Part shown: positions 4,129 through 24,650 of the stretch, piece by piece | Layout of the letters: each line of letters starts with the position of its first letter | Numbering within the stretch: the first letter of the stretch is position 1 | DNA from: a virus | DNA length: 24,650 nucleotides | Strand: one strand, 5' to 3' | IMG/VR virus record: IMGVR_UViG_3300008517_000730 | Span: 1 to 24,650 of that record | Program-made: the position numbers and the translations under genes | The notes under the pieces: model-generated | Told to the model about the DNA's origin: nothing | What the model saw: only the letters and a program-made list of their open reading frames with translations | The model's database searches: none

Positions 4129-4436
4129 TGGACACACTCCGCAATATCAGTTTGTTCAGTGACTTCACAATCATCCAAACAACCATGAATACCAGTACAT
4201 TCACCCATAAATAGTTCACAATTACCAGCCAAACCGCCAACATCACCCATCAAATTACCTACTGGACCCCAAAGATTCGTAACATTACCACTAAGTTCAC
4301 GGCAATCACCAATTATCCCCGAACAGTTTCCCCAGATATTGTCACAATTGTACACTCTTGCGTGTGGACCTAAAACTTTTTTGCTACCTCTATAGTGATA
4401 TAATACGTTTTTTGTTTTACTCAGTTTCTTCTTCAT
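4125..4436 (-). CDS. Heptapeptide-repeat protein (103 aa)
   Basis: After a basic N-terminus (MKKKLSKTKN) the protein is built of about eight 7-residue repeats with consensus x-[L/I]-x-G-[D/N]-[C/V]-x: NIWGNCS, GIIGDCR, ELSGNVT, NLWGPVG, NLMGDVG, GLAGNCE, LFMGECT, GIHGCLD. It ends in an acidic tail, DDCEVTEQTDIAECVQ. The regular Gly and alternating hydrophobics suggest a solenoid or beta-helix. From memory, similar 'SGLxGDV' repeat proteins ending in DDCE are frequent in phage genomes, with unknown role. Start ATG 4436 has AAGGAG 5 nt upstream and overlaps the previous stop (ATGA). Many Cys replace Val at the sixth position, which could give a disulphide or metal ladder. Confidence 0.75.
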   Translation of the reverse strand: MKKKLSKTKNVLYHYRGSKKVLGPHARVYNCDNIWGNCSGIIGDCRELSGNVTNLWGPVGNLMGDVGGLAGNCELFMGECTGIHGCLDDCEVTEQTDIAECVQ

Positions 4437-4966
4437 CGCCACTCCTTAATTTCGGGTATATCTCTGTACATTCTGAACATTTGTTCAGAAGTAAAATACT
4501 TGAACCATTGCTTCTTATTAGGCGTTACTCCAATTTGTGTAAGTGGCGGTATATTTACTACATCAGCCCATCGCAAAAGTTCGTTCAAGTCATCCCATCT
4601 CGAATATCTGATTGTAAAATCGCAATTATTATGCAAAAAGAAATTCTCTTGTTCACAGGCCCACTTTACGTGTCTCGCCACTACGACTTTTTCAGATAGT
4701 GGTGGTCTGGAACTTTCGGCAGCGCGGTTTTGCGCATTCAAAAATAAAGCGATCTTTGTCGCAATAATCTCTCGTGGATCACGAACCACCCTAAAAGAAA
4801 AGCACCCTCCGGGGATCAAATTGCGTTCCAAACCATACTCACGTGTCATATGATGATGACCCACATCTTCACTACCGGGTATCTCCATAAGCATTGCAGA
4901 AATAGCCCTAGATCCAGTGTGTACTTCTGCGTAAAATTGAAAATTGTATTTATGATTGATTATCAT
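4433..4966 (-). CDS. Sulfotransferase-like protein, copy 2 (177 aa)
   Basis: Paralogue of the gene immediately upstream. It shares EVHTGSRAISAML near the N-terminus (compare EPHTASRAVTKAL), FSFRVVRDPREIIATKIA (compare FSVIRDPREIIATMIA), then CDFTIRYSRWDDLNELLRW and KKQWFKYFTSEQMFRMYRDI. The early Ser/Arg loop and the later RDPRE segment resemble the PAPS-binding 5' and 3' phosphate loops of sulfotransferases, so a sulfotransferase-type P-loop fold is likely. Catalysis is unproven and the protein is short for the family. Start ATG 4966 has AGGAG upstream and overlaps the first copy's stop (ATGA). Confidence 0.55.
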   Translation of the reverse strand: MIINHKYNFQFYAEVHTGSRAISAMLMEIPGSEDVGHHHMTREYGLERNLIPGGCFSFRVVRDPREIIATKIALFLNAQNRAAESSRPPLSEKVVVARHVKWACEQENFFLHNNCDFTIRYSRWDDLNELLRWADVVNIPPLTQIGVTPNKKQWFKYFTSEQMFRMYRDIPEIKEWR

Positions 4967-5484
4967 CCCCAACTCCTAAAAAGGTCAATTTCCGGGATAT
5001 TTGCGTGCATTCTGCGTATTTGTTCAGGTGTAAAATACTTGAACCATGGCTTTTTACCTTTGGTTACACCTACCAACGGTAGTGTAATAGGATTTTCTAC
5101 ACCTAACCACCTCAAGAGACCATTCAAATCATTCCATCTTGGGTATCTGATTGTATAATCGCAATCATTGTGTCTAAAGAACTTTTCTTGTTTACAACCC
5201 CATTTCACAAAACGTTCTACAATCCTCCCTTGATCGTACTTTTGAGCAAAACGCAATTCATTGATTTTACATGCGATCATTGTTGCAATAATCTCACGTG
5301 GATCACGAATCACACTGAAAGAAACATATCCGGCTGTAGACAATTCAGACTTCTCTAAAGTCAAGTGTTGATGATCACCAACTATCTCACTGTTTCTGAG
5401 TGTTTTAAGTGCCTTAGTAACAGCACGTGAAGCCGTATGTGGTTCGGCACAAAAAATGAATTTATACTGTGTGTTTTTTAACAT
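4963..5484 (-). CDS. Sulfotransferase-like protein, copy 1 (173 aa)
   Basis: Begins MLKNTQYKFIFCAEPHTASRA: a beta strand followed by a small-residue/Arg loop where sulfotransferases bind the PAPS 5' phosphate. About 60 residues in, FSVIRDPREIIATMIA matches the 'RDPxE' 3' phosphate-binding helix of that superfamily. The C-terminal part (CDYTIRYPRWNDLNGLLRW, then KPWFKYFTPEQIRRM) is conserved with the downstream copy and with host sulfotransferases only in general pattern. Candidate substrates are unknown; phage examples could modify surface glycans. Overlaps the end of the 92-aa gene by 23 nt, with GGAAGAG just upstream of the ATG. Confidence 0.55.
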   Translation of the reverse strand: MLKNTQYKFIFCAEPHTASRAVTKALKTLRNSEIVGDHQHLTLEKSELSTAGYVSFSVIRDPREIIATMIACKINELRFAQKYDQGRIVERFVKWGCKQEKFFRHNDCDYTIRYPRWNDLNGLLRWLGVENPITLPLVGVTKGKKPWFKYFTPEQIRRMHANIPEIDLFRSWG

Positions 5485-5740: not shown

Positions 5741-6078
5741 AAATAGTCCTCTAGTGCTATTAGTAATTCCATTACTTCTTGTGCCATTTTGCTATTTTTC
5801 ATCAACCAATTAACAGAAATTGCAATACCATAACTATTGTATATACCACTTAGTATTACGCAATAATCTTCAAATTCTTCAACAAAAACACGATAATTTG
5901 CCATTGCCGCTGTGCTACCACCATAATCACTTCCTTGCATATAATTTAAAACAATGTAGCAATTGTCTTGCTCCCAATCCTTTGTCGGTGACAAATCAGA
6001 AAAATGAGCAGAATCATCTAATTCATGATCAGCGACATAAAGATCAATAGATCGAAGCGTCTTGATTTTGTCAATCAT
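5737..6078 (-). CDS. Acidic hypothetical protein (113 aa)
   Basis: Unrecognised. Contains CYIVLNYMQGSDYGGSTAAM and a central VFVEEFEDYCVILSG strand-rich section, with an acidic helical end (QEVMELLIALEDYF). AAAAGGAGAAATAA precedes the ATG, a good ribosome-binding site. Its stop overlaps the start of the 92-aa acidic protein (TTGA), so the two are coupled and may work together. Confidence 0.68.
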   Translation of the reverse strand: MIDKIKTLRSIDLYVADHELDDSAHFSDLSPTKDWEQDNCYIVLNYMQGSDYGGSTAAMANYRVFVEEFEDYCVILSGIYNSYGIAISVNWLMKNSKMAQEVMELLIALEDYF

Positions 6079-6104
6079 TTATTTCTCCTTTTGTGATTTT
6101 AACA

Positions 6105-6404
6105 TCATAAAATTTGAGGACAACCAGAAATCTGAGCATTATCAGAAATTTCAACATAATCAAAGATCTGAGCATAACCAGAAATCTGAGCATGATCAAA
6201 AATCCGAGCATCACCAGAAATCTGAACATGACCAAAAATCCGAGCATCACCAGAAATCTGAACATAATCAAAAATCCGAGCATTCTTGCCAATATAGACA
6301 GTCTCTGCGACTGTTGCTGTGTCCGCAACCCAACCGCCCTCAGTACCCTCCAGGTTAATGTGACGATGTGCTGGTTCTAGACCGTTGCCAAAATCAAACT
6401 TCAT
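6105..6404 (-). CDS. Left-handed beta-helix (hexapeptide-like repeat) protein, copy 2
   Basis: A 99-aa protein: head MKFDFGNGLEPAHRHI, a linker GGWVADTATVAETVYIG, then tandem imperfect repeats of the type xARIFxxVQISGDA to the end. This hydrophobic-every-sixth pattern (…A-x-I-x-x…) is that of YdcK-like or hexapeptide left-handed beta-helices, common in phages and without a firm role. Start ATG 6404 has AAAAGGAAAAAC upstream; a longer leucine-rich N-terminal extension reads through the paralogue's repeats out of frame and is not credible. A tandem duplicate of the gene immediately upstream. Confidence 0.75.
   Translation of the reverse strand: MKFDFGNGLEPAHRHINLEGTEGGWVADTATVAETVYIGKNARIFDYVQISGDARIFGHVQISGDARIFDHAQISGYAQIFDYVEISDNAQISGCPQIL
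6117..6290. repeat. Degenerate 18-nt tandem repeats inside beta-helix copy 2
   Basis: Plus-strand units of the form ATCAGAAATCTGAGCATx recur about every 18 nt, with variants (aaaaatccgagcatcacc and others). The period is six codons, so these are the coding repeats of the beta-helix, not an array with spacers. The near identity makes this a likely place for slippage and copy-number change. Confidence 0.8.
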
Positions 6405-6735
6405 TTGTTTTTCCTTTTGTGATTTTAACATCAGAAATCCGAACACGATCAGAAATCCGAGCATGACCAGAAATCCGAGCATGACCAGAAATCTGAGTAT
6501 CACCAGAAATCAGAACATAATCAGAAATTCGAGCATGATCAGAAATCTGAGCAAAATCAAAAATCCAAACATGATCAGAAATCCAAACATGATCAGAAAT
6601 CTGAGCAAAATCAAAAACCTTAACATTTCTACCGATATGCACAGTCTCTGCGACCGTTGCTGTGTCCGCAACCCAACCACCACCAATAATATGTCGATGT
6701 GCTGGCACTGGACCGTTACCGAAATCAAACGTCAT
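6394..6735 (-). CDS. Left-handed beta-helix (hexapeptide-like repeat) protein, copy 1
   Basis: A 113-aa paralogue of the next gene: head MTFDFGNGPVPAHRHI, WVADTATVAETVHIG, then repeats such as FAQISDHVWIS and TQISGHARISGHARIS. The conserved head and adjacent position show a tandem gene duplication, while the repeat part has changed in number and sequence, as expected when near-identical 18-nt units recombine. It overlaps copy 2 by 11 nt. Start ATG 6735 overlaps the stop of the 57-aa gene (ATGA) and has AAAAGGAGAGAC upstream. Confidence 0.75.
   Translation of the reverse strand: MTFDFGNGPVPAHRHIIGGGWVADTATVAETVHIGRNVKVFDFAQISDHVWISDHVWIFDFAQISDHARISDYVLISGDTQISGHARISGHARISDRVRISDVKITKGKTNEV
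6425..6612. repeat. Degenerate 18-nt tandem repeats inside beta-helix copy 1
   Basis: The same 18-nt unit type as in the downstream paralogue (for example ATCAGAAATCCGAGCATG), repeated about ten times. The two repeat blocks are alike enough to recombine with each other. Confidence 0.8.
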
Positions 6736-6965: not shown

Positions 6966-7403
6966 TCAACCTTCATCGTTTTCCGGCGCATCCTCCTCCG
7001 GCGCATCCTCCTCCGGCGCATCTACATACTCGTGGACTTCACACAAAATACTGTTTCCAGAGTACGAATATTTAATGATCTTCAGCGATTTAACGAGAAC
7101 ATAACTCGTATTATCCACGATATCACCGAGACCGGTTTTCTGGATAAGTTGAGTCCGTGCTCGCGGAAGCAAGACGCACTTGAATCCGTGGTGCGAATCA
7201 TTTTCTTCATCCTGAAGAAACCAACCAAGTTCTTCACCGAACAAATCAGGGACGTACGCGCGGCCAAAAATAAATGGCGACGCACCCTTTTTGACTTCGA
7301 TTGTGAGTTTGGCTGGCGAACCATCAAAAGTCGAGAGAATCGTACCGACTTCAGGTTGCGTTGAAGAAATTCTGGCGTAATCAGCGGCCCATTCAGTTGA
7401 CAT
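6966..7403 (-). CDS. Hypothetical protein with acidic repeat tail (145 aa)
   Basis: The body is strand-rich (GTILSTFDGSPAKLTIEVKK, then FIFGRAYVPDLFG and YVLVKSLKIIKYSYSG). The C-terminus is a tandem DAPEE repeat ending in NDEG. A small beta-rich body with a flexible acidic tail is the layout of single-stranded DNA-binding proteins and of some RNA-polymerase-binding phage proteins, but I cannot assign either. It overlaps the sigma-like gene by 11 nt and is the last gene before the terminator. Confidence 0.7.
   Translation of the reverse strand: MSTEWAADYARISSTQPEVGTILSTFDGSPAKLTIEVKKGASPFIFGRAYVPDLFGEELGWFLQDEENDSHHGFKCVLLPRARTQLIQKTGLGDIVDNTSYVLVKSLKIIKYSYSGNSILCEVHEYVDAPEEDAPEEDAPENDEG
6983..7022. 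repeat. 15-nt coding tandem repeat
   Basis: CCGGCGCATCCTCCT recurs with period 15 (units starting at 6983, 6998 and 7013), encoding the DAPEE repeats of the acidic tail on the minus strand. It is GC-richer than its surroundings. Confidence 0.85.
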
Positions 7404-7998
7404 GGTTCACAAACCTTTTGTAGAGAGTTAAACGAGTACGAGAAACTTTTGAACGACTCACATCTAAAATTGCAGCAATCTCCGCATCAGTATTACCAGC
7501 TCTTCGGTATAAATACACCTCGCTTTCAAATTCTGAATCAACAATCTTATCCATAATCTCGTCGAATTCAATGATGTCAAAATCAGCATCTCCGTCTAAT
7601 GCGTCTACTATAGTACACGTGAGAATTTTCTTTTTGGCGTATCGTGGTACGGGGATTAGGGTATTATTTTGTAGTGCTTCAAAACAATGCTGATGAATAA
7701 ATGACATAATGTAACCACGTGGGTTGTGATTATTAAAATCACCACTCTTCATTTTATCAACAGCCACACAAATACCCAACATCGCGGCACTCACCATTTC
7801 CTCAACATCACAACCTCTTTGGATATAATACCCAGCAATCAAAAGACCACAACGCCCCGATCTCAAAATCAATTCTTCCCACTTTTCAGCTTTGACTAGC
7901 TCTTTAGCTTCTTCAACGGTCAAAGGACCGGATGGAAAATTACTCCAAAGCGGATGTTTGTACGCGTTCCTTTGATGCACGAAATCACGTTTGAACAT
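7393..7998 (-). CDS. Sigma-70-like RNA polymerase sigma factor
   Basis: A 201-aa protein with two sigma-like parts. Region 2-like: residues about 43-110, including VEEMVSAAMLGICVAVDKM and RGYIMSFIHQHCFEAL, the helical core that binds the -10 element and core polymerase. PVPRYAKKK (116-124) is where region 3 starts in sporulation-type factors. Region 4-like: a helix-turn-helix at about 160-196 (RRAGNTDAEIAAILDVSRSKVSRTR). This is the size of group 3/4 factors and of phage sigma factors. It stands behind a strong host-type promoter, the expected arrangement for an early factor that redirects host polymerase to later phage promoters. It overlaps both neighbours (14 nt and 11 nt). Confidence 0.78.
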   Translation of the reverse strand: MFKRDFVHQRNAYKHPLWSNFPSGPLTVEEAKELVKAEKWEELILRSGRCGLLIAGYYIQRGCDVEEMVSAAMLGICVAVDKMKSGDFNNHNPRGYIMSFIHQHCFEALQNNTLIPVPRYAKKKILTCTIVDALDGDADFDIIEFDEIMDKIVDSEFESEVYLYRRAGNTDAEIAAILDVSRSKVSRTRLTLYKRFVNHVN

Positions 7999-8201: not shown

Positions 8202-8213
8202 AAAATCAAATCA
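8202..8213 (-). promoter_or_regulatory. Leader word TGATTTGATTTT (copy in sigma-unit leader)
   Basis: Lies in the 5' leader between promoter and first gene, extended by further TGATTTTG repeats to about 8187. The same 12-nt word occurs at 8289-8300, 22419-22430 and 22758-22769. Could be an operator or an RNA leader element. Confidence 0.4.
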
Positions 8214-8235: not shown

Positions 8236-8264
8236 ATTATAGCATGAATCTAACGAAAATACAA
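8236..8264 (-). promoter_or_regulatory. Sigma-70-type promoter of the sigma-factor unit
   Basis: On the minus strand TTGTAT (8259-8264), a 17-nt spacer and a perfect TATAAT (8236-8241), with TG one base before the -10 box (TGCTATAAT), i.e. an extended -10. It stands about 78 nt upstream of the first start codon of the 57-aa/sigma/145-aa unit. The best host-type promoter seen in the window. Confidence 0.85.
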
Positions 8265-8288: not shown

Positions 8289-8300
8289 TGATTTGATTTT
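8289..8300 (+). promoter_or_regulatory. Leader word TGATTTGATTTT (copy at end of C39-like gene)
   Basis: An exact copy in plus orientation, straddling the stop codon of the C39-like gene and followed by TAAAAATAATAATCAAAAC, so a weak hairpin can form with the downstream ATCAAA. It sits about 25 nt upstream of the -35 box of the sigma-unit promoter. Confidence 0.35.
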
Positions 8301-9464: not shown

Positions 9465-9697
9465 TGCATTTGACCTGCAAATAATCCAAATGCTGATTCC
9501 ATTTTCAATGCTCTTGCTTCCTCTTCCGTGTATTCAACAAAAACAGAATAATCACAAATCTGTTTCTCACGTATAGTTGCTCGCAAATATATTAATTTTT
9601 TATTGTCACGGTAGTAAGTTACTATTAATGTATCACCCGGATCCACAGATATAGGAGAATTGAATCTCTTTTTTGTAATTTTAATAATTTTCTCCAA
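9461..9697 (-). CDS. Hypothetical protein (about 78 aa)
   Basis: Conserved-looking part: KRFNSPISVDPGDTLIVTYY, then strands LIYLRATIREKQI and YSVFVEYTEEEARALKM. The start is uncertain: the open frame runs into the NDK gene, and I choose TTG 9697 because it overlaps the NDK stop by a normal amount; an ATG much further upstream would overlap NDK by over 100 nt. No family recognised. The stop overlaps the next start (ATGA). Confidence 0.55.
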   Translation of the reverse strand: MEKIIKITKKRFNSPISVDPGDTLIVTYYRDNKKLIYLRATIREKQICDYSVFVEYTEEEARALKMESAFGLFAGQMQ

Positions 9698-10088
9698 AGA
9701 AAAGTGCAATTTCTTTATTAACAGCCACTTCGCTATCTGATGCGTGTATACAATTAAATCGCGTTGGGCACATACCGTAATCACCCCGTATTGTACCAGG
9801 ATTAGCTAAAGCACTAACTGTATTTCCTATCATTCTCCGTGTTCGATCAATTGCACGAACACCTTTAATAACTATACCAATAATAGGGGCGGATAACATA
9901 AATTTCTCATTTTGTTCGTATGGAATACGGGATAAGTGACAGTACATTCTGTTATACCAAATTTCATCCATTTGTTTCATTTCTATTTTTACAATACTAA
10001 ATTCAATATTCTCGAATCTCGAAATGATTTTACCAATCAATCCTCTTTGTATTGCGTCAGGCTTGATGATTACGAATGTTTTCTGCAT
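9681..10088 (-). CDS. ndk: Nucleoside diphosphate kinase
   Basis: A 135-aa nucleoside diphosphate kinase, which transfers the gamma phosphate from one NTP to another NDP through a phospho-His and so balances dNTP pools. The N-terminus MQKTFVIIKPDAIQRG has the conserved Lys9 and KPDA. RRMIGNTVSALANPGTIRGD is the nucleotide-binding RxxxG…PGTIRGD block. FNCIHASDSEVAV holds the catalytic His115 in the N-x-x-H-x-S-D-S signature, with all key residues kept. The length is close to the family norm, with a slightly short C-terminus ending FFGENY. ATG 10088 is chosen because AAGGAG lies 8 nt upstream and it overlaps the preceding TAA (TAATG). Confidence 0.95.
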   Translation of the reverse strand: MQKTFVIIKPDAIQRGLIGKIISRFENIEFSIVKIEMKQMDEIWYNRMYCHLSRIPYEQNEKFMLSAPIIGIVIKGVRAIDRTRRMIGNTVSALANPGTIRGDYGMCPTRFNCIHASDSEVAVNKEIALFFGENY

Positions 10089-16695: not shown

Positions 16696-16892
16696 TCGCC
16701 TATACTGTTTAGATACTTCATAGCTTTCAGCAAGCGTGAATCTTCTTCTCGCATAACGGCAACTGCTCTTGCACATTTAGAACAAAAGACACCTGTTAAT
16801 TTTCCGTTAAAATTATCAACAAAACCTTGATCGGGTATGAATTGCCCACAAACAGTACAAACGAAAAGAGTGTCGTGTGTTTCACACTTCAA
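16692..16892 (-). CDS. Small zinc-binding protein (66 aa)
   Basis: Two CxxC pairs, CTVCG and CSKCA, about 25 residues apart, with the sequence DTLFVCTVCGQF and GVFCSKCARAVAVM: a zinc ribbon like those beside other phage replication genes here. I place the start at TTG 16892, because GGAGAG lies 5 nt upstream and the overlap with the helicase end is then 11 nt; a TTG at 16913 has no RBS. The stop overlaps the 33-aa membrane gene. Confidence 0.66.
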   Translation of the reverse strand: MKCETHDTLFVCTVCGQFIPDQGFVDNFNGKLTGVFCSKCARAVAVMREEDSRLLKAMKYLNSIGE

Positions 16893-19698
16893 AGCATCTC
16901 TCCACTTCTCCAAGTGTTAGTGATTGTAGTCTTCTTTTCTGTTGAAGATTCTTTAGAACTAGGTCATCCGTCGGAAGATGAATCAAATCTATAATCGTTG
17001 CACCACGATTAAGATCTAGCCCCGGTCGATGTATTCTATCTTCTGATTGAATCCTACTCGCCGCATTAAAATCATTACTGTAGTACACAATCGTTGGTGA
17101 AGCAGTTAGAGTCAAACCAATACCACCGGATTCAGGATGCGCAATAAAAGCAACTTTCGGATGTTCTATTAATTGGTCCTGGAACAGGGATAATGGATCA
17201 CATTCATCAATAGAGCAGTTCCATCCACGACCATCAACCCGAATTGTTGCCCACCCATGGTCGTGACAAATCTGGACGATTCGATCCACACTCCCGGTGA
17301 AACTAGCGTATACCACGATGCGACCACAATCGTCGTGCGCATCAAGCAAGTCCAATAATGCGGCGTCTTTCGGTGATCCAACATCTTCAATAGTCCTCTT
17401 GTACTTAGTGCATTGCCCACTACCACCACAACCATCACAATCACATTTTTCTTCCGGTTCGATAGGATTAATCATTCGCCCAAGGCCACCACATACCTTA
17501 CACGTCATTGTACCATCTTTGACTTCTTGATATTGAAATCCGTCTGATAATTCACGAACCAATGTCAAACCACCAATTACAGTGGGTGACGTTTGAACCA
17601 ATGATTTCGCAATCTGAAGTGTCTCTTGATCTGGTTTCAATACAATACGACGATAGATTTTATCTGGAAGATCGAGATGATCTTTTTTGAGTTGCACTAA
17701 AACCAAACCGTCCATTCGTCTGTAGAGTCGTGCAACTTCATTTTTTGATTCTATAAATGCATGATAATTATCAGCACACATATCTTTATCATGTACATCA
17801 TCATGTTCAAGTTCGCCACAAACAGCACATTTACATTCATCGTCTAACCATGTTTGAAGATGTGGATAGACACCACCACCTTGGAAAGTTTCGCGTTGAA
17901 TAACAACAGCAAGACTTCTTTTGAACTTATGGATGTCACCCTCTTTTAGAAAACCTGGACAACCTACTTCGCAATTATGTGCTAAAAAACCATTAGCAGC
18001 AAAAGCATGTACCTTGGGTACGTTGATATCAAAGACGTCATCTGTTTTTGAATAAGTAATATCTTTTACAGTTACAAATCTTCTTAGCCAGTTGTGTCTA
18101 TTTTCAATACGCTTGTGTAGCGTTTTAATTTTCTTTTGATGATGAAAACCTATTCGCTCCTCAAAGTGAATAGCGTCTATATTTGTGACGAAAAGAATAT
18201 AATTGATTTCAGCACTATTTATTTTACGCCCTTCGATACAAGAAGAACTTTTCTTTTTAACACAGATGTTAGATTGAATACCAAAATAAGTTAACATTCT
18301 TTGTACAGTGTAAATGCGATTTCTATCAGTTTGACTTAATGTTATACGCAAACGACTCTTTTCAGCGTGGCCATCAGCGTCAAAAAATCCTCTTAAAAAT
18401 CCCCGCATACAATCACTTGAAATCGAAGATTCGAAAAATGGAGTTATTTTCTTTTTATTATCAAAACCAAATTCACGAACAAGTTCTGTTATGTAATTGT
18501 CGTGTATTTGCCACGGATTATTACCAGTGATATTAAAGTCAGAAGGAAAATAATCTTTCAAAATTTCGATTAAATGATAATCTTCTTCAAAAAATTGTAA
18601 CCTTCCGTAATAATTATTTCCTTTTTTGTAAATGTTACCGTCACCAAATAATAATCCAAGAATATAACCGTCCCCAAAAGTACCACAACCGTCCCAATTA
18701 AAGTCACTGTAATTAGCTAACTGTAATGAATCTCCGAGTTTCAAATCTTTCAATTCACACCATTCGCCATTAGATTTTCGAAATTTATGGTCCGAAGTTG
18801 CTTCTACAGAGTATCCCTCTTTTGTTTTTAATTTGTATAGTTTTCTAGTTCCAGTTTTGAAAAATCCGTTCGTTTGATAGTTTTGACCTTGTACTCGAAT
18901 ACCAATTGGCTGTGAAATTAGTTCCCGAATTTGCTTCGGTCCATCTAAAGTAAGAGTCCAAGTGTCCTTAGAAAAACATTGATGCCACCAATCAGAGGGC
19001 GCTTTGGGAGCAGGTGAACCAGACATAAGAATCACAAACCCTGAATCACCCCAATCTTGACGTACCCCATTCGCTAGCATCATTGCAGCTTGACTTCGTT
19101 GAGTGGTAGGCGTCTTGATTTTTTGTGATTCATCGAAGACAACAAAATCAGGAGCTGTGTCACCGGCTTTCCAATTCTTTATTACATTAGTCATTTTCTC
19201 ATAAGTCATCATTTTGATGTCTAAATCAAAGTTCCAAACATCAAACTCGCGTTCAACGGCTCTGATTCCAGATTTTGGTGCAACATACCAAATATCTTTA
19301 CAACCAGAACGTTCCATTGTTTCGATAACACATAAAGTCTTTCCGACTCCCATTTCGCCCGCAAGAACACAATAATGACGACTCAACAAAAAGTCAGCAG
19401 CGTCCTTTTGATGTTCATAAAGAGGACGGACATATTGTTGCTTGATGATTTCTTTATCAAAAGGAGCATAGGGATCTTTACCTTGGAGATAATCAAGTTG
19501 AAAAGCATTATGTGCATTGTCAGTAATAGACCAAACCTTGCGCGGAGGATCTTCAAAGCCGTGCCATTTAGCACCCGACATAGCTTTGATTTCTGCAATC
19601 AAAGCTCTCGAGAATTTGAACTGTACAAAGATGCGGCCATCTTTATAAGTAAGAGAAGCAGGCAAACGATATTTGCCCGCACGTAGCTTGACTTCCAT
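16882..19698 (-). CDS. SNF2/SF2-type DNA helicase, intein-containing precursor (938 aa)
   Basis: A DEAD-like superfamily 2 ATPase of SNF2/HARP type, split by an intein. The N-terminal 80 residues (FKFSRALIAEIKAMSGAKW, KVWSITDN) resemble the HARP-like region of annealing helicases. Walker A is GEMGVGKT (114-121); motif II is VVFDESQK (187-193). Motif III MSGSPAPKAPSDWWHQ ends at residue 240, where the intein begins (241-575); extein resumes with CEVGCPGFLKEG. Motif V/VI: HPESGGIGLTLTASPT and SRIQSEDRIHRPG (881-893). Between the two helicase halves are extra Cys clusters: ECKCAVCG (621-628) and a DnaJ-like set CKVCGGLG…CDCDGCGGSGQC (733-763). The spliced protein would be about 603 aa. GAGGAG precedes the ATG. 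Confidence 0.92.
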   Translation of the reverse strand: MEVKLRAGKYRLPASLTYKDGRIFVQFKFSRALIAEIKAMSGAKWHGFEDPPRKVWSITDNAHNAFQLDYLQGKDPYAPFDKEIIKQQYVRPLYEHQKDAADFLLSRHYCVLAGEMGVGKTLCVIETMERSGCKDIWYVAPKSGIRAVEREFDVWNFDLDIKMMTYEKMTNVIKNWKAGDTAPDFVVFDESQKIKTPTTQRSQAAMMLANGVRQDWGDSGFVILMSGSPAPKAPSDWWHQCFSKDTWTLTLDGPKQIRELISQPIGIRVQGQNYQTNGFFKTGTRKLYKLKTKEGYSVEATSDHKFRKSNGEWCELKDLKLGDSLQLANYSDFNWDGCGTFGDGYILGLLFGDGNIYKKGNNYYGRLQFFEEDYHLIEILKDYFPSDFNITGNNPWQIHDNYITELVREFGFDNKKKITPFFESSISSDCMRGFLRGFFDADGHAEKSRLRITLSQTDRNRIYTVQRMLTYFGIQSNICVKKKSSSCIEGRKINSAEINYILFVTNIDAIHFEERIGFHHQKKIKTLHKRIENRHNWLRRFVTVKDITYSKTDDVFDINVPKVHAFAANGFLAHNCEVGCPGFLKEGDIHKFKRSLAVVIQRETFQGGGVYPHLQTWLDDECKCAVCGELEHDDVHDKDMCADNYHAFIESKNEVARLYRRMDGLVLVQLKKDHLDLPDKIYRRIVLKPDQETLQIAKSLVQTSPTVIGGLTLVRELSDGFQYQEVKDGTMTCKVCGGLGRMINPIEPEEKCDCDGCGGSGQCTKYKRTIEDVGSPKDAALLDLLDAHDDCGRIVVYASFTGSVDRIVQICHDHGWATIRVDGRGWNCSIDECDPLSLFQDQLIEHPKVAFIAHPESGGIGLTLTASPTIVYYSNDFNAASRIQSEDRIHRPGLDLNRGATIIDLIHLPTDDLVLKNLQQKRRLQSLTLGEVERCFEV
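17974..18978 (-). mobile_element. Intein with LAGLIDADG homing endonuclease (in helicase)
   Basis: A 335-aa intein, residues Cys241 to Asn575 of the helicase precursor. Block A starts CFSKDTWTLTLDG; block B is YSVEATSDHKF, with the catalytic TxxH; blocks F/G are DVFDINVPKVHAFAANGFLAHN, ending in His-Asn, followed by extein Cys576 (the +1 nucleophile). Two dodecapeptide motifs, YILGLLFGDGN (345-355) and FLRGFFDADG (434-443), mark an inserted LAGLIDADG endonuclease. All splicing residues are present, so it should splice and may still be mobile. It sits in motif III of the helicase, at a site that must be intact for ATPase function. Confidence 0.95.
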
Positions 19699-21403: not shown

Positions 21404-22372
21404 TTACGCAACAGCAGCGGCTGCTTCAGCAGCGGCTTGCTTTGCCTCTTCAGCCTTCGTTGCGGCGCGATCAGCAGCGCGCTTCTTTTTAAGCTCATTA
21501 ACCGCTTGCTTCTTTGCTTCAGCCTTAGTGCGCTGAACTTCAACACTATTAGGATCAAGATTCAACACCCAAGCGACACCAAGAGCAAAACCGTCGATCG
21601 CGGTTTTGACTTTACAAGATCGAATTAGCTCAGGACCAATCGTAGGATTTTCAAGCTCATTCTTAAGTTCACTCATCTTTTGAACACGTGCAATAGGAAT
21701 GAACTCGGCCGGCGCAGCCCTTTTACCAGCTCGCGCCGCGTCACGCAATTCCTTAGCTCGCGCATTAATAGTCGGAATAAATTCTTCAACACCCATTGTT
21801 ATTGCCTGATCGACAAAGTGAGGTTGCTCACCTTGCGGGAGCTTAGCCAAAGCAATAGCATTACTAACCTTGATTTTACCATCATCTACCATCTTCGCAA
21901 TCGGATCCGCCAACTTCAAAAGCCCAAGACGTGAAGATACCCACGCTCCACTCTTAGCCAATCGAGCAGCGAGATCAGCGATTGTCATAGTAGGATTAAC
22001 TGAAAGTACGCGATTCAACTGCTTAGTATATTCAACCGCGCGTGTTTCAGCCTTATGCACATTGGCCATAATCTGCGCTTCATAGACTTCCACATCACTA
22101 ATATCTTTGACAAGTACGGGAACCTCAACTAGACCCACATCAAGCGCCGCAGAATAACGATGAAGACCGTCGATTAGTTCATAATACGCAATGATTTCAC
22201 CATCAATATTTTCTTCACGTCTACGCACACTAAACGGATTCAATAGACCAACACTAGCAACCGAATCACGCAAACCAATGAACTTTTCGGATTCGCGATC
22301 AACTGCGCGTAAAGCAACAGGATTCTCACGAATATCTGCCACTTTTACAACTGATACAACAACCTTACTCAT
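21404..22372 (-). CDS. ParB/Spo0J-like protein 1 (322 aa)
   Basis: ParB N-terminal domain with IDGLHRYSAAL (67-77, in place of GHRR), then ANVHKAETRAVEYTKQLNRV and a helix-turn-helix MTIADLAARLAKSGAWVSSRL. The C-terminal 50 residues are Ala/Lys-rich (AKKQAVNELKKKRAADRAAT, ending AAAEAAAAVA), a basic low-complexity tail of the DNA-compacting kind. First gene leftward of the divergent palindromic region, so it is a natural candidate to bind the repeats there. Start ATG 22372 has AAGGAG 6 nt upstream. No ParA is present. GC is a little higher than in neighbours. Confidence 0.85.
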   Translation of the reverse strand: MSKVVVSVVKVADIRENPVALRAVDRESEKFIGLRDSVASVGLLNPFSVRRREENIDGEIIAYYELIDGLHRYSAALDVGLVEVPVLVKDISDVEVYEAQIMANVHKAETRAVEYTKQLNRVLSVNPTMTIADLAARLAKSGAWVSSRLGLLKLADPIAKMVDDGKIKVSNAIALAKLPQGEQPHFVDQAITMGVEEFIPTINARAKELRDAARAGKRAAPAEFIPIARVQKMSELKNELENPTIGPELIRSCKVKTAIDGFALGVAWVLNLDPNSVEVQRTKAEAKKQAVNELKKKRAADRAATKAEEAKQAAAEAAAAVA

Positions 22373-22404
22373 GTACAACTCCTTGGAAAATTGATGGCAA
22401 AATC

Positions 22405-22430
22405 ATTTGATTTAATTCAAAATCAAATCA
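22405..22430 (-). promoter_or_regulatory. Leader hairpin with word TGATTTGATTTT (ParB-1 leader)
   Basis: ATTTGATTT (22405-22413) and AAATCAAAT (22420-22428) form a 9-bp inverted repeat with a 6-nt loop, in the leader of ParB-like gene 1. It includes an exact minus-strand copy of TGATTTGATTTT (22419-22430). Confidence 0.45.
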
Positions 22431-22502
22431 AGTGATTGTAGGGAAACTCCCCACTAACATATATTACGTAAAATACAACTATATTGTGCAATAAAACTGT
22501 AT

Positions 22503-22534
22503 TATATAATGAACACGCGCGCGTTCATTATATA
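22503..22534. repeat. 12-bp palindromic hairpin and alternating purine-pyrimidine tract
   Basis: TATATAATGAAC (22503-22514) pairs with GTTCATTATATA (22523-22534) around ACGCGCGC. The following bases (22531-22553) continue as a strictly alternating purine-pyrimidine run, TATATGCGTGTGTGCGCGTATAC. Such sequence can extrude as a cruciform or turn left-handed when supercoiled. It lies inside the left half of the large inverted repeat and has no matching partner on the right. Confidence 0.75.
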
Positions 22535-22561
22535 TGCGTGTGTGCGCGTATACAGAAATAC

Positions 22562-22649
22562 AATACTACTTCTTTTCCAAGTCCCCCTATATATATACAC
22601 TCTCTTTTCTTTTTATTTTAATAGTAGCAAATAGAAAAGAAGTAGTATT
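22562..22649. repeat. Inner 16-bp inverted repeat
   Basis: AATACTACTTCTTTTC (22562-22577) and GAAAAGAAGTAGTATT (22634-22649) enclose a 56-nt centre with CCCCC, TATATATATA and a pyrimidine-rich TCTCTTTTCTTTTT run. Easy-melting, strand-biased sequence of this kind is common at origins. Confidence 0.8.
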
Positions 22650-22757
22650 TTATAGTTGTAACTCGTTATAATACAGTAACTTAGGAAAAAGATTGCACAA
22701 TATAGTTGTATTTTACGTAATATACATTGAACGGCACACTATTTGCACGGTGTACTT

Positions 22758-22792
22758 TGATTTGATTTTAAGACAATGATATTAAAATCAAA
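22758..22792 (+). promoter_or_regulatory. Leader hairpin with word TGATTTGATTTT (primase leader)
   Basis: TTTGATTTTAA (22761-22771) and TTAAAATCAAA (22782-22792) form a perfect 11-bp stem with a 10-nt loop, 18 nt before the primase start codon. It includes TGATTTGATTTT at 22758-22769. It could hide or expose the RBS, or be a protein-binding site. Confidence 0.5.
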
Positions 22793-22809
22793 CCACTTCA
22801 GGAATTTTG

Positions 22810-24650
22810 ATGGCAAAATCAAAACAGCCCACACCAACTGAAGCATTACGTTCTTTTTTGAACCAGCGCACACATCCCGATTTAGCGTGTATGTATAATT
22901 ACGGGATGGAAGTCCAAGTAAATGTAGCACAAGACGATGGCGAACAAATTCAACAAACAAGTGGTTATACGGGACGTATATGGAGTGGTTATACAGACGG
23001 TTTAACTACTTGGAAATCATTTCGTATTCCTTGGAACGCTGCTACTGAACCTGAATATAATGAAGAAAATAGAGAAATGCGTTTTGATTTGGCCGCGCAT
23101 GCTGAAGGTATAGGAATGACAGGATGGGATTGGCGAAATAAAACATCAAAATGGGTGGCTTTTGATTTTGACAGTATTATTGGACATTCCACTGGATTGA
23201 CTGCTGAAGAACTTGCCGCTGTTGAACATACAGCTTACGATATTCCTTGGATTACAGTAAGAAAATCAACCAGTGGTAGTGGGATTCATTTATATGTTTT
23301 CCTGGATGTATCTACAATTAATCATACAGAACATGCTGCACTCGCGCGTGCAATCCTTGGCAAAATGTCGGCAGAAGCAGGTTTTGATTTTGCCAGTAAA
23401 ATTGATGTTTGTGGCGGGAATATGTGGGTGTGGCACCGTAAAATGACAAAAGAAAATATGGGTTTGCAATTATTGAAACAAGGTGAAAAACTAATTGATA
23501 TTCCTATCAATTGGAGAAATCATCTTACAGTTATAAAAGGAAATAGACGCAAGACACAACCTGAATTCGTTAAAGAACCAGATTTATTCGACGAATTAAC
23601 AAGTCAACGTTCACAAGTCAAATTAGATGATGGACATAGTAGACTTATTGATTATTTGAAAAAAGAAAATTGTCAATGGTGGTGGGATCAAGATCATAAT
23701 ATGTTAGTATGTCATACGTCCGATCTTAAAAGGGCACATACTGAACTTAATTTGCGTGGCATCTTTGATACAATCGCAACAGGTAAAGATCAAAGTGACC
23801 ATAATTGTTTTAGTTTTCCTCGATCACACCCGAAAGGCGCATGGGAAATAAGACGTTATACACCCGGTGTTCAAGAGTCACCTTGTTGGGATGTCGACGC
23901 AAGTGGCTATACACGATGTTATTATAATAGTGAACCGACGCTTAAAATAGCCGCTAATGCGGTTGGTGGCGTGGAAGATGAAAAGGGAAGTTTTCATTTT
24001 AGTGAAGCCGAGGTTGCCTCAAACGTCGCTTTACAATTAGGTGTAGATTTAGCTGTTCCACCGTGGGCGTGTACGCGACCCACTGAATTGAAACAACATC
24101 GAGACGGACGTTTGATTGTAAATATCAAACGTGAATCTACAGATAGAACTCACGATATGTTGAATTGGCATGAGGATAAAAATCAATGGAAAAGAATTTT
24201 TAACGCCCGTATCTCACCCTCTAACACTTTGGAGATCGGTAATTTTGATAATATTGTACGTCATATAACTGATACTGACCATAATGATGTAGGCTGGGTT
24301 ATTAAAGCTAACGGAAAGTGGCAATCTGAACCGTTGAATCATGTCAAAATAGTTTTGAAAGCCAAAGATTTATCCGCTAGAGAAGCGGATTTAGTTCTAG
24401 GACGATGTATAGAAGAGAGTTGGATTTTAGTAAATGAACCGTTTCAAGATGAATACCCAGGTAATAGAACGTGGAATAGATACGCAGTGCAATTAAAGTA
24501 TGCACCGAAACAAGAGAAACCTTTCTTTTGTCCTACTTGGGATTCAGTTTTAGATCATGTAGGCGCTGGTCTTGATATTGCGATCAAAGAGGACGAATGG
24601 TGTAAAGTAAATGGTATTATCACAGGTGGAGATTATTTAAGATGTTGGGT
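22810..24650 (+). CDS. Archaeo-eukaryotic-type primase (AEP) protein, 3' end beyond window
   Basis: Open from ATG 22810 to the right edge with no stop (613 codons seen). AGGAA lies 6 nt before the ATG. The first 230 residues form an AEP-type primase/polymerase domain: FDFDSIIGH (Asp119, Asp121) is motif I, RKSTSGSGIHLYVF (His160) is motif II, and FASKIDVCGGNMWVWHRK (Asp199) is motif III. The next 380 residues (WWWDQDHNMLVCHTSDLKRA, VDLAVPPWACTRPTELKQH, CIEESWILVNEPFQDEY and others) are a long helical/linker region; a helicase (D5/SF3-type) part may lie beyond the window. From memory, similar proteins occur in environmental phages. It would start replication opposite PolA and helicase, reading away from the palindromic region. 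Confidence 0.86.
   Translation, partial: MAKSKQPTPTEALRSFLNQRTHPDLACMYNYGMEVQVNVAQDDGEQIQQTSGYTGRIWSGYTDGLTTWKSFRIPWNAATEPEYNEENREMRFDLAAHAEGIGMTGWDWRNKTSKWVAFDFDSIIGHSTGLTAEELAAVEHTAYDIPWITVRKSTSGSGIHLYVFLDVSTINHTEHAALARAILGKMSAEAGFDFASKIDVCGGNMWVWHRKMTKENMGLQLLKQGEKLIDIPINWRNHLTVIKGNRRKTQPEFVKEPDLFDELTSQRSQVKLDDGHSRLIDYLKKENCQWWWDQDHNMLVCHTSDLKRAHTELNLRGIFDTIATGKDQSDHNCFSFPRSHPKGAWEIRRYTPGVQESPCWDVDASGYTRCYYNSEPTLKIAANAVGGVEDEKGSFHFSEAEVASNVALQLGVDLAVPPWACTRPTELKQHRDGRLIVNIKRESTDRTHDMLNWHEDKNQWKRIFNARISPSNTLEIGNFDNIVRHITDTDHNDVGWVIKANGKWQSEPLNHVKIVLKAKDLSAREADLVLGRCIEESWILVNEPFQDEYPGNRTWNRYAVQLKYAPKQEKPFFCPTWDSVLDHVGAGLDIAIKEDEWCKVNGIITGGDYLRCW

Follow-up and report, generated by a model that had tools for sequence, protein, structure and literature searches.

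Organization of the gap between the ParB-like and primase-helicase genes

The window analyzed here is a whole IMG/VR virus record of 24,650 bp. Near its right end, a 437-bp gap divides two opposite-facing gene blocks: the gene for ParB-like protein 1 (21404 to 22372, minus strand; Pfam ParB_N, 1.4e-11, and HTH_ParB, 2e-8) is the first of a leftward replication operon, and a primase-helicase gene (22810 to 24650, plus strand, cut by the contig end) is the first of a rightward operon. The primase-helicase of one relative, L003, is a DUF5906 protein with a weak Prim-Pol match; in another, the frame as delimited (L026, 5974 to 7824) contains one in-frame stop codon, which could reflect recoding, a broken gene, a sequence error, or the choice of start. 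Elsewhere, the window carries an SNF2-like helicase split by an intein that contains a LAGLIDADG homing endonuclease domain (16882 to 19698), a phage-borne nucleoside diphosphate kinase (9681 to 10088; Pfam NDK, 3.5e-37), neighboring open reading frames with short imperfect ISDHARISG-like repeats that resemble, by eye, a left-handed beta-helix hexapeptide (6071 to 6735), and two adjacent related frames (RAVTKALK and RAISAMLM; 4433 to 5484) that look like a tandem duplication and, by eye, like sulfotransferases.

The gap is built of nested inverted pairs. Its outer arms (22460 to 22492 and 22692 to 22724) are 33 bp long and 100% complementary, with 33 of 33 positions identical; 150 dinucleotide shuffles of the 437-bp gap gave a longest perfect inverted match of at most 20 nt (mean, 10.5), so the 33-bp repeat of the preliminary description is real. 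Each arm reads outward as A-TTGCAC-19 nt-TAATAT-A, the span of a –35 to –10 promoter. In the left arm, a putative leftward promoter copy on the minus strand, TTGCAC lies at 22486 to 22491 and TAATAT at 22461 to 22466, the 19 nt between them ending in ACG; in the right arm, a putative rightward copy on the plus strand, the two boxes lie at 22693 to 22698 and 22718 to 22723, again 19 nt apart. The core between the two putative promoters (22493 to 22691) is probably untranscribed and is a candidate activator or origin region.

Both inner pairs described previously are also present. The 11-bp middle box TATAATACAGT occurs at 22496 to 22506 (minus strand), 3 bp inside the left arm, and at 22667 to 22677 (plus strand), 14 bp inside the right arm, so that its two offsets differ by about one helical turn. 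The 16-bp inner arms, AATACTACTTCTTTTC (22562 to 22577, minus strand) and GAAAAGAAGTAGTATT (22634 to 22649, plus strand), form a perfect pair within a longer 47-nt pair that is 72% complementary. The three pairs had been placed about one center, whereas their centers (22592, 22586.5, and 22605.5) are close but not identical and lie up to 19 bp apart. The alternating GC tract assigned to that center exists, but it belongs to a separate, near-perfect 32-nt palindrome (22503 to 22534, 94% complementary). An outermost pair had been missed: AAAATCAAATCAA (22419 to 22431) and TTGATTTGATTTT (22757 to 22769), which contains an operator-like word discussed below. Folded as DNA, the 265-nt repeat region is stable (–56.9 kcal/mol; z score, –10.5), which is attributable to the complementarity of the arms. 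No further copy of the arm sequence was found elsewhere in the 24,650-bp record, and Rfam gave no match within 22300 to 22900. A 21-nt direct repeat of 90% identity (22385 to 22405 and 22801 to 22821), possibly an operator variant, has its left copy just outside the ParB start and its right copy overlapping the primase start codon.

The symmetric architecture is conserved among uncultured relatives

Phage GenBank records contained no nucleotide match among annotated phages, nor did a tblastn search with the primase-helicase find one. In IMG/VR, a single-sequence query yielded one relative and a two-sequence alignment yielded 80 uncultured relatives, and ParB-based loci added more. The divergent order of the ParB and primase-helicase genes is retained in most relatives. 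When each gap was compared with its own reverse complement, inverted symmetry exceeded all 100 shuffles in 40 of the 54 testable gaps, and the median self-inverted score was 53.5, versus 24.0 in 1,310 control tiles from the same loci; 14 of the 54 gaps had no excess symmetry, and in several other gaps the score derives from a local palindrome. The gap sequences themselves differ from phage to phage. The architecture is therefore conserved and the sequence is not, and scans for sequence conservation would miss a conserved DNA architecture of this kind because internal symmetry alone is kept.

This comparison also bears on whether the 265 bp could be a MITE, a small element resembling a transposon and ending in 33-bp inverted repeats, as its bounding perfect repeats might suggest. 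The window has no second copy, no flanking target duplication was seen, and dozens of relatives have symmetric arms of other sequence in the corresponding gap. We rejected this reading, the chance of which we regard as negligible, on the single copy in the record and on the relatives' differing arms at the same gap.

A search of genome contigs matched mostly Planctomycetota metagenome-assembled genomes (MAGs), and these may be misbinned phage contigs. Two distant primase-helicase relatives, on a 444-kb Planctomycetota MAG contig (L158) and on L159, have inverted arms of 33 to 37 nt upstream; each could be a prophage or a megaphage.

The two arms of a gap resemble each other more than they resemble the arms of other phages. 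With operators masked, the left half of the same gap was the best match of the right half in 37 of 57 phages. The same result was obtained in 37 of 56 phages (about 0.5 expected) when, in addition, a near-duplicate was dropped and the central 60 bp were removed, each right half being ranked against 111 halves. In the phages at rank 1, the arms have a median length of 45 nt and an identity of 87% and lie 150 bp apart. These matches indicate that the arms change in concert. In the comparison of L016 with L102, 18 columns are altered in both arms and 5 follow orthology, whereas in L006 and L007, the arms of which are weaker, the balance is reversed (3 concerted, 23 orthologous); concerted change is therefore common but not universal.

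The arms resemble a phage-specific promoter that recurs before late genes

A de novo motif search on outward halves returned ...ATTTncCGTATAATATnATG and AGTnAGTaAG, and the –35-like boxes vary widely between phages. The recurring –10-like box lies in the outer arm. The middle arms had been credited with an outward TATAAT each; the outward TATAATACAGT is indeed found on both sides, but its TATAAT is not the recurring –10. No canonical, host-type sigma-70 promoter was found in the window gap.

When the arms of each long relative were used to scan its own sequence, a third arm-like copy appeared 32 to 36 kb to the right of the gap. Since the window fragment is without late genes, this copy is known from relatives: in six of the eight that have late genes, it lies no more than 150 bp before the terminase operon and points at it (strong in four, weaker in two). 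Its score was reached by none of 179 to 187 random stretches in G003, G006, G009, and G014, by 1 of 189 in G007, and by 3 of 188 in G001; no third copy was found in G020 or G016. Downstream follow a TerS-like gene of 152 to 190 amino acids and then terminase-large-like and portal-like genes, all named by their sequence appearance. The third copy follows the phage-specific sequence, mainly in the promoter core. From the span of the arms and the third copies before the terminase operon, the arms are best read as two copies of one phage-specific promoter. The mirror DNA between the opposite-facing gene blocks most likely represents matched promoters firing left and right, and with few exceptions the phages of this uncultured family most likely each possess a private form of the pair. 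The earlier idea of a two-way element agrees with this, in that the arms behave as matched outward promoters and the relatives keep both the symmetric arms and the gene order.

Identity of the arms might instead be imposed by recombination, or by template switching at the fork, between inverted copies, with the arms homogenized rather than selected by a reader and the middle perhaps able to flip. The identity in the window does extend over all 33 bp, including the 19-nt spacer, and aligned stretches in relatives reach 119 nt. However, the relatives' arms are typically 80 to 95% identical and not perfect, and the third copy, 32 to 36 kb away, is also phage specific, mainly in the promoter core. 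We consider homogenization rather unlikely. Recent copying had been offered as one explanation of the exact repeat; it can be dispensed with, since arm sequences vary from one phage to another, agree inside a single genome, and reappear before the late operon. A switch operating by inversion gained no support, with neither a recombinase nor an inverted version seen in the sequences examined.

Operator-like words and a phage sigma-70-like factor

The outermost pair brackets the arms with an operator-like word, GATTTGATT, at 22421 to 22429 (minus strand; variants at 22404 to 22417) and at 22759 to 22767 (plus strand; variant at 22786 to 22794). This word occurs 99 times in the 54 gaps, compared with 13 times across all flanks. 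When TGATTTTnnATCA was considered as a general start-associated element, 8 of 37 cases lay in leaders (3.8 expected), and this reading was set aside. Many genomes have a second GATTTGATT pair within the leftward operon, bracketing sigma-70-type promoters of the canonical TTGACA-17-TATAAT kind with 17-nt spacers (TTGACA-TATATT, TTGACC-TATACT, TTGCAA-TATAAT, TTGACT-TATACT, TTGACG-TAAAAT, and TTGACA-TAAGAT). In the window, the bracketed promoter is TTGTAT-17-TATAAT, with TGC before the –10 box (8236 to 8264, minus strand), and the words lie downstream at 8204 to 8212 (minus strand) and upstream at 8290 to 8298 (plus strand). G020 carries two nearly identical copies of such an operator-bracketed promoter, one 11.5 kb and the other 16.1 kb to the left of its gap, with 4.6 kb between them.

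The promoter at 8236 to 8264 lies upstream of a gene (7393 to 7998, minus strand) for a sigma-70-like factor, the proposed reader of the arms, which was recognized by a family profile and by Foldseek; in six of eight genomes, the sigma-like gene is at most about 700 bp downstream of the bracketed promoter. An iterated profile search found it in 11 of 11 genomes; later rounds drifted into ParB, and the early, syntenic set alone was used. The eight-member family profile matches sigma factors in the PDB (best, 5.3e-21), and the window protein alone gives weak matches in Pfam. Its AlphaFold model has a pLDDT of 72.7 and a pTM of 0.51, and nearly all top Foldseek matches are sigma factors (probability, 1.00; E value at least 0.002), with TM scores below 0.4 and large RMSD values, as expected from loosely joined domains. 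Mean pairwise identity is 25% for the sigma protein, compared with 50% for ParB, 55% for the helicase, and 54% for the polymerase, and judged by these identities the sigma-like gene is fast evolving. In an IMG/VR search, the window protein found no relative, and the other sigma proteins matched their own contig alone. When sigma similarity was compared with promoter similarity in a Mantel test, rho was 0.06 (P = 0.34), the promoter similarity between phages being saturated at noise level. We infer a link from the sigma factor to the arms; the promoter pair is probably read by the phage's own sigma factor.

Alternatively, the arms could be sites for another phage regulator, such as ParB-like protein 1 or 2, with host-type promoters nearby. 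ParB-like 1 is adjacent, every contig examined retains ParB-like 2, and palindromic arm elements recur at an operator cluster of G026. On the other hand, the window gap lacks a host-type promoter, the arm is as long as a promoter from –35 to –10, and copies of it are found a short way ahead of first genes. The ParB helix-turn-helix sequences show no visible change with the site word; for ParB-like 1, no covariation was visible between the recognition helix and the operator word, though operator words vary. With regard to a possible ParB/parS partition locus, in which the adjacent ParB would bind a parS-like palindrome, these are the observations, together with the ParB_N and HTH_ParB domains of ParB-like 1. 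A regulator of this kind is in our judgment unlikely to be what the arms serve.

The core as a candidate replication origin

The core, with or without the arms, may also be where phage replication begins, through melting by transcription, binding of the primase-helicase or DnaA, or both. The primase-helicase and the replication operon adjoin the gap, and outward AGTNAGTNAG arrays are largely confined to it (30 in gaps and 9 in flanks, about 79-fold per kb), being present in the cores of 16 of 50 relatives' gaps. Eight perfect DnaA boxes, TTATCCACA, occur in the gaps of L037, L038, and L043; with two or three per gap, they lie in the right half, share a single orientation, and are confined to one subclade. 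The DnaA box is absent from the window gap and from most relatives' gaps, and the recurrence of the arm before the terminase operon suits a promoter. An origin in the core had been proposed previously; the GC skew does change sign here, but over whole genomes it follows the coding strand. Among 10 long contigs, three of them with a terminal overlap of 114 to 127 bp, the skew is positive over the rightward operon of about 5 kb alone and mostly negative where genes run left; in three circular genomes it tracks the coding strand throughout, switching back about 5 kb rightward of the gap. The sign change at 22.5 kb thus reflects the coding strand, and GC skew was rejected as an origin signature. 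Given the DnaA boxes of the three relatives and the AGTNAGTNAG arrays, origin function of the core is possible, though in our judgment less likely than not.

Comparison with known systems and a proposed model

A literature search on divergent identical phage promoters, on concerted evolution, and on DUF5906 with ParB returned nothing relevant. In lambda-type divergent control regions and L5 stoperators, divergent promoters are flanked by operators and operator words are repeated. The gap is similar in that operator-like words flank putative divergent promoters, whereas here the putative promoters are matched, non-host-type copies. In Cluster K mycobacteriophages, start-associated and extended start-associated sequences precede the starts of conserved genes; these words are short, and some carry 17-bp imperfect inverted repeats with a phage-specific consensus (PMC3203893). 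There the sites are many and mostly in one orientation, whereas here GATTTGATT is found at few promoters and in mirrored pairs, and the arms are promoter sized.

The closest known kind is the sigma system of phages 7-11 and phiEco32. These phiEco32-like phages have phage sigma factors with their own promoters alongside early sigma-70 promoters, the bipartite promoter of 7-11 being GTAAtg-16-aCTA (PMC8948821). Members of this group share promoter positions but differ in promoter sequence and in sigma factor; their promoters precede late genes, and their sigma genes were judged to be independent acquisitions (PMC8948821). The phages described here likewise have a putative sigma-70-family factor and several putative promoters sharing a non-host consensus, and we infer sigma-directed transcription. 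Unlike in that group, all 11 genomes examined carry the sigma gene in syntenic position and alignable form, and one mirror-symmetric gap holds two putative promoter copies back to back in dozens of phages. The new element is this paired, mirror-imaged, concertedly evolving promoter gap, the architecture of which is kept across dozens of phages.

We propose, with a probability of roughly two in three, that the gap is a bidirectional hub in which two outward copies of a phage-specific promoter enclose an internal core, GATTTGATT operators lie outside them, and the phage sigma factor reads the arms. Transcription of the phage sigma gene would come first, by host sigma-70 RNA polymerase acting at the operator-controlled promoter. 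The resulting sigma factor would then bring RNA polymerase to both arms, the left arm driving the ParB/replication operon and the right arm the primase-helicase operon, and it would also direct RNA polymerase to the late promoter. According to this proposal, the arms match each other because one private, fast-evolving sigma factor must read them all. A stronger version, in which almost every lineage reinvents its promoter set, with a syntenic, fast-diverging sigma factor and three matching promoters changing together into orthogonal codes and the gap serving as an origin as well, seems to us quite unlikely. If the proposal is true, these gaps would supply dozens of naturally occurring sigma/promoter pairs, matched within each phage and diverging between phages, in which sigma-promoter coevolution would be directly testable and which would be a source of orthogonal expression parts.
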